Shown piece after piece: positions 23,132 to 25,969 of a stretch of 31,153 nucleotides of DNA. The stretch lies in the IMG/VR virus record IMGVR_UViG_3300032299_000212, positions 1 to 31,153 of that record; one strand, 5' to 3'. The notes beneath the pieces are model-generated. The model saw nothing but the letters and a program-made list of their open reading frames with translations. It searched no databases and was not told the DNA's origin. Origin of the DNA: a virus. Each line of letters opens with the position of its first letter. Within the stretch, counting starts at the first letter, position 1. A program made the position numbers and the translations under genes.

Positions 23132-23734
23132 TTAAGAGAACGTTGCGTAAGCGGGTACGTAGTAAACAGTGCCGCCAATCATCACTTTGATTGCTTTAGA
23201 CACAGTAGTCACGCTAGTTGCTGTAGGCGCAATCGTAGCGGCGGGAGCTGTTTCAATGTTCATCAACAAAGGAATCTCACCCGTGTTTGTACCGCTGTCA
23301 GACACGCGAATGAATGAAGCAGTTGCGGGTAAAGTAGCGTTAACTGTGTAGGCGGTGTCTAGTTGAATAACAGACAAAGTACCGCCGGGAGTAGCATCAG
23401 AGCCGCCCAAAGTAGCACGAATTGCATTAGCCGCACCAGAAATAGTGGCTGATGCGCCGTCAATACTTAAAGAAATGTGAGCGCCGTTGATCGTGCCGCC
23501 TGTTGCAGCATCAGTGCCGGTTACAACGGAGAAAGCACGGAGAGTCTCACCTGAACCTGTAGAGGTAAAGGTCAGTTTGTTGTAGCTCAAACGCGTGTCG
23601 CCGGTAGCGGCAGAGGTCGTAGCGTAAGACTCAGAGATGTTGCCAGAAGTTGTTACTGCAATTGGGGAAGCTGCTGTGCCGCCAATAAAACCGTTTAACG
23701 ATTTGACGGGGCCGGAGAATGTGGTCAATGCCAT
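23132..23734 (-). CDS. Beta-rich virion protein (200 aa), first gene of the second structural unit
   Basis: Starts MALTTFSGPVKSLNGFIGGT; the rest is Thr/Ser/Ala-rich with TGSGETLRAFSVVTGTDAAT, GGTINGAHISLSIDGASATI and SFIRVSDSGTNTGEIPLLMN. The pattern resembles capsid-associated or fibre proteins of aquatic phages, but the family is uncertain to me. Translation starts at ATG 23734 with AAGGA 6 nt upstream. That SD is directly preceded by the 3' arm of a predicted pseudoknot, and a putative promoter lies about 90 nt upstream. Confidence 0.65.
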   Translation of the reverse strand: MALTTFSGPVKSLNGFIGGTAASPIAVTTSGNISESYATTSAATGDTRLSYNKLTFTSTGSGETLRAFSVVTGTDAATGGTINGAHISLSIDGASATISGAANAIRATLGGSDATPGGTLSVIQLDTAYTVNATLPATASFIRVSDSGTNTGEIPLLMNIETAPAATIAPTATSVTTVSKAIKVMIGGTVYYVPAYATFS

Positions 23735-23745
23735 GATGTGTCCTT

Positions 23746-23801
23746 ACATACAAGTGAAGTGCATTAGTCTGTATGTCGTCAGCCGGGACTGTCTAATGCA
23801 C
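23746..23801 (-). promoter_or_regulatory. Predicted H-type pseudoknot in the mRNA leader of the 200-aa gene
   Basis: On the minus strand, in RNA order: GTGCATTAG (23801-23793), ACATACA (23776-23770), CTAATGCAC (23767-23759), TGTATGT (23752-23746). The first and third pair (9 bp), the second and fourth pair (7 bp), and the arms interlock in pseudoknot order with loops of 16, 2 and 6 nt. The last arm touches the AAGGA Shine-Dalgarno (23745-23741) of the gene starting at 23734. This arrangement could modulate ribosome binding. The complementarity is seen directly; folding and function are inferred. Confidence 0.6.
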
Positions 23802-23823
23802 CGGATAACCCCGGATTACTGTG

Positions 23824-23852
23824 TTTATATCACGGTATTTTTAAGTGCGCAA
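23824..23852 (-). promoter_or_regulatory. Putative sigma70-type promoter for the second structural unit
   Basis: TTGCGC (23852-23847), a 17-nt spacer and TATAAA (23829-23824) on the minus strand. A start near 23817 would give an approximately 80-nt leader containing the pseudoknot. It sits in the 159-bp gap between the divergent GNAT gene and the 200-aa gene, after a terminator and two opposite-strand genes that would otherwise block the late transcript. No equally good plus-strand promoter for the GNAT gene was seen in this gap. Confidence 0.55.
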
Positions 23853-23893
23853 CAATTATTTTTCTTGTCACAATCTCCCGGCATTATGGAGGT

Positions 23894-24334
23894 ATGAAAT
23901 ACAGCATTGTCCACGCCGATATTGATCTACCAGAGATAGTAGACCTATTGACTTTGCTTCAAAAGACGTGCCTTCCCCACGACAAAATTTACCCGCTTAC
24001 AAAAGGATATTGGTATGTTGTTTTTTCAGAAACCGGTGAAGCGGTTGGCTTTGGTGGTATTGTCCCCTCTACTCGTTGGGCTGACACTATGTACCTATGT
24101 CGCGCAGGCGTTGCACCAGCTCATCAAGGACAGGGACTCCAGAAGCGGCTTATCCGACAGCGCCTTAAAGTGGCCAAGAGATTAGGCATGAATTGGGTCA
24201 TTACTGATACCAATGAAAACCCCGCTTCTGCTAACAGTTTGATAGCTATAGGTTTTAAAATGTTTGAGCCATCTAAACCTTGGGGTTTCAAAACGGCGTT
24301 GTACTGGCGGTATCGGATCAAACATGCCGTATAA
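23894..24334 (+). CDS. GNAT-family N-acetyltransferase (146 aa)
   Basis: Plus strand, opposite to the virion operon. The fold is readable: YVVFSETGEAVGFGGIVPST (41-60) is the beta2-beta4 region, and CRAGVAPAHQGQGLQKRLIR (69-88) is the acetyl-CoA motif with Q78-G-Q-G-L. WVITDTNENPASANSLIAIG (101-120) and FKMF give the C-terminal strand-helix-strand. It would acetylate an amine; the substrate is unknown. GGAGG lies only 1 nt before the ATG, a poor spacing, so the start may be used weakly; no better in-frame start exists. Its end overlaps the HNH gene by 11 nt. Confidence 0.8.
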   Translation: MKYSIVHADIDLPEIVDLLTLLQKTCLPHDKIYPLTKGYWYVVFSETGEAVGFGGIVPSTRWADTMYLCRAGVAPAHQGQGLQKRLIRQRLKVAKRLGMNWVITDTNENPASANSLIAIGFKMFEPSKPWGFKTALYWRYRIKHAV

Positions 24335-24704
24335 AGACCCAAAAGTTAAGCAAACTAAACAAAAGACGTACGCAAACACGTACTATGAAAAAAATAAAGC
24401 AACTGTAATTGCGGCAAGTAAAGCCTCGGCCAAGGCATATAAAGATCAGTGGCGTAGCTTTAAAGCTACATTAGCCTGCGTAAAGTGCGGGCAAAACCAC
24501 CCGGCCACGTTTGACTTCCACCACATAGACAGCGATACCAAAGAAGCCTCGGTTAACAAGCTAATAAAAAACCGTGCCTTTAAGCGTGCTATGGAAGAAG
24601 TCAAAAAGTGCGTTGTGCTCTGCGCCAACTGCCACCGCATTCACCACCATGATGAACGTATGGCTAAAAAGGCCAAAAAGAAAAAAGGGGCCGAAGCCCC
24701 CTAA
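24324..24704 (+). CDS. HNH nuclease (126 aa)
   Basis: Start taken at ATG 24324, inside the end of the GNAT gene. A basic N-terminal helix (residues 1-45) precedes a zinc-binding HNH core: C52-VK-C55, DFHHID (64-69) with the His pair of the first beta hairpin, and C100-AN-C103-H104-RIHHH. This CxxC...FHH...CxxCH order is typical of small phage HNH proteins. The last residues (KKAKKKKGAEAP) are encoded by an opposing transcription terminator. It may be a free-standing homing-type nuclease that entered the operon together with GNAT; a DNA-processing role is the alternative. Confidence 0.8.
   Translation: MPYKDPKVKQTKQKTYANTYYEKNKATVIAASKASAKAYKDQWRSFKATLACVKCGQNHPATFDFHHIDSDTKEASVNKLIKNRAFKRAMEEVKKCVVLCANCHRIHHHDERMAKKAKKKKGAEAP
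24675..24700 (-). terminator. Rho-independent terminator for the acidic gene (minus strand)
   Basis: On the minus strand GGGGC-TTCG-GCCCC (24700-24687) forms a 5-bp stem with a cUUCGg tetraloop, followed by TTTTTTCTTTTT. It lies 7 nt after the stop of the 78-aa acidic gene and inside the 3' end of the opposing HNH gene. On the plus strand no T-tract follows, so it acts in one direction. Confidence 0.85.
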
Positions 24705-24707
24705 GTA

Positions 24708-24944
24708 TTACTTGTTATCAGCAGCTTCTTCAGCGGCTTCAACTTCAGCGCCGTCTAACTCTTCTTCAGTGTCATCTTCGTCTTCAAACTCTTCGTCGTC
24801 AGGTGCGGCTACGTACTCAACAGCCCAACCGTAATTTTCTTGAAATTCCACGAACTTTTGGAAAATTTCAATCATCTCAAAATCGTGTGTCTCAATAGAC
24901 AACTTGTTGTTACCAAAGTAACCAAATTCCATTTCAAATTTCAT
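24708..24944 (-). CDS. Small, highly acidic protein (78 aa), DNA-mimic-like
   Basis: Start taken at ATG 24944 (GGGG about 8 nt upstream); the same frame is open to 25037 but runs through a terminator. The N-terminal half is a beta/helix segment (MKFEMEFGYFGNNKLSIETH, DFEMIEIFQKFVEFQENYGW). The last 32 residues have 18 Asp/Glu (DDEEFEDEDDTEEELDG and on). It has its own putative promoter and terminator, the layout of a phage moron gene. Acidic small phage proteins sometimes mimic DNA and block host nucleases; that is only a hypothesis here. A metal- or protein-binding structural role is also possible. Confidence 0.75.
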   Translation of the reverse strand: MKFEMEFGYFGNNKLSIETHDFEMIEIFQKFVEFQENYGWAVEYVAAPDDEEFEDEDDTEEELDGAEVEAAEEAADNK

Positions 24945-24962
24945 GATGTGCCCCTGTGTTAG

Positions 24963-24981
24963 TGCAGCCACAGCGGCTGCA
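24963..24981. promoter_or_regulatory. Perfect palindrome at the predicted start of the acidic-gene transcript
   Basis: TGCAGCC and GGCTGCA arms (7 bp, 5-nt spacer) lie directly downstream of the putative -10 (24987-24982) and about 20 nt before the ATG. No T-tract follows, so it is not a terminator. Its position over the transcript start fits an operator, or a 5' stem-loop protecting the mRNA. Confidence 0.55.
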
Positions 24982-25009
24982 AATCTATCGTAGTTTAACT
25001 TTGTGACAA
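24982..25009 (-). promoter_or_regulatory. Putative promoter for the acidic gene
   Basis: TTGTCA (25009-25004), a 16-nt spacer and TAGATT (24987-24982) on the minus strand. It starts right after the T-tract of the capsid terminator, so transcription would restart here for a single gene. The -35 matches consensus at 5 of 6 positions, the -10 at 4 of 6. Confidence 0.45.
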
Positions 25010-25010
25010 C

Positions 25011-25033
25011 AAAAAGGCCACCCGAAGGTGGCC
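25011..25033 (-). terminator. Strong rho-independent terminator after the capsid gene
   Basis: On the minus strand GGCCACC-TTCG-GGTGGCC (25033-25016) makes a 7-bp stem with a cUUCGg tetraloop followed by TTTTTGTT. It lies 27 nt after the capsid stop. A weaker hairpin (AGCC...GGCT, 25041-25055) stands between them. It would stop or greatly reduce read-through from the head module. Confidence 0.9.
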
Positions 25034-25060
25034 CCAAATAGCCCTCGTGAGGCTGTTTTA

Positions 25061-25969
25061 TTAAGCGCCGGAAGAACCGAACATGCCCAATGGATCAGAC
25101 CAGCCGAAGCTGTAACGCTCACGAGACTTGTAACGAACGTTACCAGTGTCGAAGTCGCCGTCCATTGACTGAGCCAAAGGCGAACGCACAAAGTGCTTCA
25201 TACCGTTAGGCACGTCTGTGCACAAGAACCAAGCGTTGGTATCAGTCAAGAAGTGGTTAATGGTATATCCACCGGGGATAGAACCATTGTTCTTCAATGC
25301 GTTGATATCGTTGTCAGCAGTAGACACGCGCAATTCAGTCTCAAGCAAACGAGTTGCCGTGAACTGCAATGCAGGTGGAACCACCAACTTGCTAGGTTTA
25401 GCAGCGATCAACAAGCCGCGCTCGTCTGTCCACAAGCTAATCTGAATAACAGCGTTTTCCAACGATGTTTCATTCAAGTCAGCAGGTGTAGAAGGAACGT
25501 TACTGTTAGTACCGCCAGAGACCAAGGGGTGTGCGTTGGAGAACAAAGCAACACCATCACCACCGGGGTAAGCGCTAGAGAAACCGTTGTTCAAAACAGC
25601 GGCAGCTTTAACTTGCTTAGTGTATGCCATAGCGCGGGCCAAAGCCTTCGTGTAACGAGCAGACAGTGAGTCATACAAGTTATCTTCGATAGCTTCTTCA
25701 GTCAAGCTGAAGCCCAAAGCAATGGTTTCGTGGTTGTATCGAGCAGTCCATGCTTCCTGTGCATTGTCATAAGCGATGGCAGAACCCTCGTTTTTGACTG
25801 GTGCAGCAGAGAAACCAGACAGTTTGGTCTCTTCTTCAAATGAACGCTCAGAGGTCTCTGTTTCATAGATCTCTTTGTGCTCTTCGCCGTATTTAGCATA
25901 CTCCAGACCGAACAAAGCGTTCAGACCGGGGAGCAGCTCTTTCAATAGTTGTGCGCGTGAAATAGCCAT
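25061..25969 (-). CDS. Major capsid protein, Mu gpT-like HK97 fold (302 aa)
   Basis: Resembles the Mu-like major head subunit gpT family: FEEETKLSGFSAAPVKNEGS (44-63), AYDNAQEAWTARYNHETIAL (66-85), GFSLTEEAIEDNLYDSLSAR (86-105). Next come AVLNNGFSSAYPGGDGVALF followed by SNAHP, then KLVVPPALQFTATRLLETEL and a C-terminal YKSRERYSFGWSDPLGMFGS. These are the helix, P-domain and exposed loops of an HK97-type shell protein. It follows the scaffold-like and surface protein genes and is closed by the strongest terminator of the window, as expected for the most abundant product. AAGGAG precedes the start. Confidence 0.8.
   Translation of the reverse strand: MAISRAQLLKELLPGLNALFGLEYAKYGEEHKEIYETETSERSFEEETKLSGFSAAPVKNEGSAIAYDNAQEAWTARYNHETIALGFSLTEEAIEDNLYDSLSARYTKALARAMAYTKQVKAAAVLNNGFSSAYPGGDGVALFSNAHPLVSGGTNSNVPSTPADLNETSLENAVIQISLWTDERGLLIAAKPSKLVVPPALQFTATRLLETELRVSTADNDINALKNNGSIPGGYTINHFLTDTNAWFLCTDVPNGMKHFVRSPLAQSMDGDFDTGNVRYKSRERYSFGWSDPLGMFGSSGA

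Follow-up and report, generated by a model that had tools for sequence, protein, structure and literature searches.

The window analysed here is the whole 31,153-nt stretch of IMG/VR virus record IMGVR_UViG_3300032299_000212. Its minus strand carries a major capsid protein (MCP) gene and, downstream of it, a leader predicted to be structured and a gene in the capsid cement slot. The features are listed in the direction of transcription.

25061-25969, minus strand: MCP gene (Mu gpT/HK97-type; Pfam PF25209 and PF10124, PHROG 371), upstream of the leader and marking the slot
23847-23852, minus strand: putative -35 box TTGCGC, read from the sequence; relatives have TTG-rich -35-like hexamers with 16-18 nt spacing
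23824-23829, minus strand: putative -10 box TATAAA, 17 nt from the -35 box; predicted transcription start near 23817
23810-23814, minus strand: 5' strand of P0, CCGGG, whose partner is the P2 loop
23793-23801, minus strand: 5' arm of P1, GTGCATTAG
23780-23791, minus strand: P2 hairpin CAG-UCCCGG-CUG within loop 1, covarying; stem strands CAG (23791-23789) and CTG (23782-23780)
23783-23787, minus strand: 3' strand of P0, CCCGG, part of the P2 loop and pairing with CCGGG at 23814-23810
23777-23779, minus strand: junction ACG between P2 and P3, near-invariant in the window clade; GACG is also found in the HTVC023P and HTVC027P groups
23770-23776, minus strand: 5' arm of P3, ACATACA
23768-23769, minus strand: loop 2, GA; AGA is conserved, and A67-G68-A69 is invariant in the window-clade alignment
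23759-23767, minus strand: 3' arm of P1, CTAATGCAC, covarying with the 5' arm
23753-23758, minus strand: loop 3, TTCACT, of differing length among relatives
23746-23752, minus strand: 3' arm of P3, TGTATGT, with the Shine-Dalgarno sequence adjoining directly 3'
23741-23745, minus strand: Shine-Dalgarno (SD) sequence AAGGA
23732-23734, minus strand: start codon ATG
23132-23734, minus strand: gene of 200 residues, assigned to the cement/decoration slot by its position after the MCP gene; N-terminal tag MALTTFSGPVKSLNGF

As reconstructed from the comparison of related sequences, the leader of the window clade is a pair of interlocked pseudoknots of about 75 nt that reaches from near the predicted transcript start to the SD. 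One is an H-type knot formed by P1 and P3. In the other, the loop of the hairpin P2, which lies within loop 1, pairs with the 5' end of the leader through P0. An earlier note on this DNA had described two perfect pairs of arms (9 and 7 bp) with loops of 16, 2 and 6 nt, and all of its coordinates were re-read from the minus strand and agree. It took the structure for a single H-type knot; that knot is present, but the inner hairpin P2 and its pairing with the 5' end had been missed. From 5' to 3' the order is P0, P1 arm, A, P2 with its loop paired to P0, ACG, P3 arm, (A)GA, P1 arm, the variable loop 3, P3 arm, SD, 6 nt (in the window) and AUG. The P0 strands read CTCGG/CCGAG in locus L019, CTAGG/CCTAG in L077 and AGGGT/ACCCT in L017, and P2 is longer in some relatives (CUACGU/ACGUAG in L017, CAGUC/GACUG in L175).

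The slot and the tag point to a cement protein as the product of the downstream gene. In position and in its tag MA-TTFSGPV the gene agrees with the cement slot of the HTVC023P, Pag-Yong1 and DSL-LC04 type, for which the fold is seen in the DSL-LC04-family protein. The annotations of DSL-LC04 and Pag-Yong1 name the product of the slot gene as a cement or minor capsid protein (cement protein in DSL-LC04). The DSL-LC04-family protein gives a confident structure model whose first four PDB matches are the cement proteins of Pam1, KHP30, GP4 and KHP40, while the window protein is predicted poorly (pLDDT 46, no confident fold). The earlier note's "structural gene" thus stands as a virion gene and is narrowed to the capsid cement slot. 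Over the first 16 residues, the products at loci L001-L200 keep one constant tag, MA-TTFSGPV-S-NGF, and behind it their C-terminal regions are of many unrelated kinds.

Covariation of the leader helices

The evidence for the fold comes from covariation. The window holds a single perfect 9+7 bp H-type knot with similar loops, against 0.025 expected per composition-matched shuffled window with both strands counted. Nested RNA folding of the window leader is unremarkable (z 0.06 and 0.57), since energy models without pseudoknots do not see them, and a permissive pseudoknot scan of single sequences gave shuffled leaders (up to 21.5) scores about as good as those of real leaders. With these two null results, the argument for the fold is carried by the covariation, and that signal is strong.

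All four helices covary in the window clade. The alignment of 67 distinct leaders covers P0-P3 with 25 pairs, of which 16 show double changes, and 91.4% of its cells are paired. There are 145 double-change cells compared with 28.6 in shuffled alignments, a value reached by none of 500 shuffles; four of the five covariation measures gave 0/500 and the remaining one 1/500. Sliding the partners by 1-3 columns lowered the pairing to 22-42%. Most of the signal comes from P1, where 9 of 10 pairs (one an added G.U) have double changes and a U.G wobble occurs at one pair in 18 of the 67 sequences. P0 has double changes in 4 of 5 pairs, and P3 is near constant within the clade (2 of 7). In the HTVC023P/DSL-LC04 set, 74 double-change cells were found against 18.3, with P1 changing at 10 of 10 pairs and P3 at 5 of 6; this set is the better test of P3. 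The HTVC027P-type set has 46 against 15.0 (P1 8 of 10, P3 1 of 5). These last two alignments cover P1 and P3; complementarity of the P0 type can be made out by comparison in most sequences taken singly. A covariance model of the window clade found the HTVC023P leader, which was outside its training set, with an E-value of 4e-6. The earlier note had named drift of the arms without compensatory changes as what would speak against its knot; the comparison was made, and P1 shows compensatory changes in the window clade and the HTVC023P/DSL-LC04 set, at the pair counts given above. The window leader is almost certainly a structured RNA, and the double-pseudoknot leader is real, new and deeply conserved.

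It is scarcely credible that the conserved stretch is mainly a DNA element, either an operator or a recombination anchor for the exchange of cement bodies, with the pairing incidental. Cement bodies are clearly exchanged beneath the leader, and homing-endonuclease genes also enter the gap between the MCP gene and the leader, as such an anchor would have it. However, the arms change by compensation that includes G.U pairs, and wobble pairs already disfavour a DNA reading. The same pairing is moreover kept between clades whose arm sequences are wholly different. Compensation, wobble and divergent arms together indicate RNA pairing and not DNA homology.

A candidate hairpin between the 5' CCGG and a second CCGG before P1, which may be an alternative state of the leader, is 92% paired but has only 5 double-change cells (11 of 500 shuffles), and is absent by eye from the diverged groups. 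Leaders of the STTQSIWRSGGGD-type genes (L097, L104, L108, L111, L136, L144, L158 and L182) show, by eye, what looks like a tandem U-U mismatch in P1 that could serve in recognition.

Distribution of the leader and its companion genes

The leader fold is found in hundreds of aquatic phages, among them kin of very abundant ocean viruses. IMG/VR contains at least 514 relatives of the 200-residue window protein, from which 80 loci were kept, and a leader pattern search added at least 120 further loci. The pattern-found 120 are biased to the window type, as some leader sequence was required; the protein-fetched loci are free of this bias. The genomes are kin of the Pelagibacter phages HTVC023P and HTVC027P, Planktothrix phage Pag-Yong1, DSL-LC04 and Roseobacter phage CRP-902. 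Among named phages, blastn and tblastn gave no match to the window gene or leader, and the kin were reached only through portal and MCP. HTVC023P and HTVC027P are cultured phages that carry the fold, and an infection RNA-seq study of HTVC027P has been published (PMC12753301). A near-identical leader occurs on L395 and L396, contigs from two unrelated bins (Nitrosomonadales and Armatimonadetes), which are probably phage contigs binned into MAGs. A match of the R1 model in DSL-LC04 (E 0.05) lies in a different place and was taken as chance.

The leader occupies one slot in these genomes. It is downstream of the major capsid gene at 182 of 182 loci with an MCP gene in reach, usually by 13-100 nt and by 600-950 nt where other genes are inserted, and all 13 records of 36-67 kb have one copy each. 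In the window two or more ORFs stand between the MCP gene and the leader. The gap gathers extra genes: in the window these lie at 23894-24334 (plus strand) and 24264-25037 and comprise a GNAT acetyltransferase and a C/H-rich HNH-like ORF, the latter without Pfam support, and in relatives they include GIY-YIG endonucleases (gap inserts at L165, L195, L105, L038 and L139).

The restriction to this slot bears on whether the leader could be a metabolite or ion riboswitch with an SD-occluding pseudoknot, in the manner of preQ1 or SAM-II. Such translational riboswitches place a compact pseudoknot beside or over the SD, and the small ones resemble the leader in size, topology and conserved junction nucleotides. 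The leader nevertheless precedes a single virion gene slot across phages of unlike hosts and is never found before a metabolic gene, and it matches no Rfam riboswitch. A riboswitch is therefore very improbable. The earlier note had recognised no known class, and the database agrees: Rfam 15, riboswitch classes included, gave no match in the window at the gathering threshold. In E-value mode (E up to 5) the region 23720-23900 gave only chance-level snoRNA and miRNA matches.

Leader class goes with the MCP more closely than with the cement protein, as far as a coarse classification can tell. Among pairs at or above 80% MCP identity, 94-100% have the same leader class, against 74% among pairs at 80-90% cement identity, in a pairwise and not tree-based comparison of four classes defined by regular expressions (a coarse proxy), where many locus pairs are not independent. 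On the same footing, 1261 pairs with at least 60% cement identity have different leader classes, and 11860 pairs share a class at cement identity below 25%. The regular expression for DSL-LC04 matched no locus, and that clade lies outside the comparison. The slot proteins mainly have the N-terminal tag in common and otherwise different bodies, and two further kinds, STTQSIWRSGGGD and HYSGPLQYSGKG, have no such tag. Cement/decoration domains thus appear to be swapped as cassettes beneath the leader.

These results weaken the earlier note's suggestion that the product regulates its own synthesis. Under that explanation, modelled on T4 gp32, surplus unbound cement protein would bind its own leader. 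In its favour, the leader stands before the cement gene in every case, and most of the products share the tag. But a single leader class is shared by genes for unrelated cement proteins, similar cement proteins are encoded behind leaders of different classes, tagless STTQSIWRSGGGD-type products are found under the same leader, and the tag is not basic. Because the class follows the MCP more closely, simple autoregulation by the cement protein is disfavoured and the cement body is weakened as a ligand; this explanation is improbable. The association of leader and MCP fits a trigger from the capsid lineage, and it also fits plain backbone inheritance or host adaptation.

Transcription start and Shine-Dalgarno junction

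Most leaders are predicted to be transcribed from their own promoter. A -10 box that matches TATAAT in at least five of six positions, at a constant distance from the structure, is present in 87 of 124 unique leaders and would start the RNA within a few nucleotides of P0. The putative promoter of the earlier note is thus supported: in most relatives a sigma-70-like promoter would put the start at the structure or beside it. In about 12 leaders (L076, L084, L106, L117, L143, L145, L179, L185, L056, L061, L395 and L396) the intrinsic terminator of the MCP gene runs directly into P0, no promoter is visible and the fold is kept. Expression of the cement gene in these cases apparently relies on transcripts that read through the terminator or are processed. 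The retention of the fold in these leaders indicates that a 5'-terminal position is not essential to its function.

The 3' end of the fold is tied to the SD. Among 45 unique leaders from loci fetched by protein similarity alone, the end of the P3 core is 0-1 nt from the SD in all 45, while loop 3 and the gap between SD and ATG vary. Together with the covariation, this upholds the earlier description of an H-type pseudoknot next to the SD of a virion gene and shows the knot to be conserved. The P3 of HTVC027P-type leaders, CCUAG/CUAGG, extends over the first AGG of the SD. The covarying model of the window clade leaves the SD (AAGGA in the window) unpaired, so closure of the SD there is a steric argument.

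It is likely that the leader acts on translation of the cement gene. A modest preference goes to the reading that it is a cis-acting translational gate on that gene, with the SD occluded, and it is moderately probable that the folded state is the one that represses. P3 and a coaxial P1 stack would then lie within the 30S footprint and close the SD, and cement protein would be made only once the fold opens or goes unstabilised. The fold could equally well present the SD rather than close it.

An unlikely explanation, though one of some weight, is that the leader serves mRNA stability and ribosome loading. The 5' end of an mRNA in heavy use would be shielded by the fold from RppH and RNase E, and a clean SD would be left at the 3' edge of the fold; expression would be raised constitutively with nothing sensed. 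The predicted start a few nucleotides from P0 in most relatives agrees with this, as P0 would tie up the 5' end, and so does the separation of P3 and SD in the window clade. Cement protein is also required in hundreds of copies (540 in GP4, PMC9698820). On the other hand, the fold persists behind terminators where no promoter is visible, half of the SD is overlapped by P3 in HTVC027P-type leaders, and the conserved junction nucleotides (A, ACG and AGA) go beyond the needs of a plain clamp.

Related leaders and a possible link to capsid assembly

Another RNA family occupies the same slot in some relatives. Mu-gpT-DE (Rfam RF03012, gathering score 49), filed as an sRNA and reportedly from Weinberg 2017, was found there in CRP-902 and six metagenomic relatives at 60.6-72.3 bits (L206:7996-8048; L300, L306, L311, L314, L317 and L349). 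The window leader does not match it. The two are alike in lying after a gpT-like capsid gene (the window MCP matches the Mu-like gpT family PF10124), in running up to the SD and the AUG start codon of the cement gene and in having a structure that involves the SD. They differ in that Mu-gpT-DE is a 53-nt model in which an outer helix encloses one hairpin; in the Rfam consensus CCUG pairs with the CAGG of the SD-containing CAGGAG and the model ends at the AUG, whereas the SD of the window leader is unpaired. By this pairing, occlusion of the SD recurs in the slot. The slot, the terminal AUG and the pairing of the SD together suggest that Mu-gpT-DE belongs to the cement gene as its 5' leader and is neither an sRNA nor a downstream element. 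In work with CaCoFold, Mu-gpT-DE is one of the families for which covariation supports more than the database structure displays (PMC7657543).

Pag-Yong1 was also considered. A knot drawn by hand upstream of position 8008 in L201, GACCCGGGG/CCCCGGGTC with CCGTCTCC/GGAGACGG, would cover the SD (GGAG) in that single sequence; the pseudoknot scan chose another fold, metagenomic relatives show a terminator-like hairpin, and the drawn knot is kept as a lead.

Comparison with better-known leaders gives partial likenesses. The preQ1 and SAM-II riboswitches differ from the window leader, which has no Rfam match and precedes a gene that is not metabolic. The T4/T2 gene 32 leader is also an H-type pseudoknot in a phage leader thought to control translation. 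The start codon there is about 67 nt downstream of the knot, which nucleates cooperative binding of gp32 (PMC3014915), whereas the knot of the window touches the SD and has a second pseudoknot interlocked with it; gene 32 encodes a single-strand DNA-binding protein and the window gene a virion protein of the cement slot. The S15 (rpsO) mRNA has a pseudoknot in its translational operator (PMC3014915), but there a ribosomal protein regulates itself, and the Rfam scan detected no sequence relation to the window leader.

A phage protein as the trigger of the leader is conceivable at somewhat below even chances. With less confidence, the stabiliser of the fold may travel with the capsid lineage; unassembled MCP is one candidate and a different conserved morphogenetic protein another, and cement output would in this way be matched to shell assembly. 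The fullest form of this proposal is a widespread phage RNA checkpoint: capsid assembly, its state conveyed by free MCP or another capsid-lineage protein, would open the double pseudoknot for cement translation. As a whole it is doubtful.

The leader fold is listed for these phages in no RNA catalogue searched and is a new and well-supported structured RNA. The protein that locks the shell is probably switched at translation by this fold. The question of how tailed phages match their cement supply to their shells becomes testable, and a role as leader of a capsid cement gene is proposed for Mu-gpT-DE. If the checkpoint were true, the shell would be locked only when there is a shell to lock, and Mu-gpT-DE would represent a second version of it, either independent or diverged.
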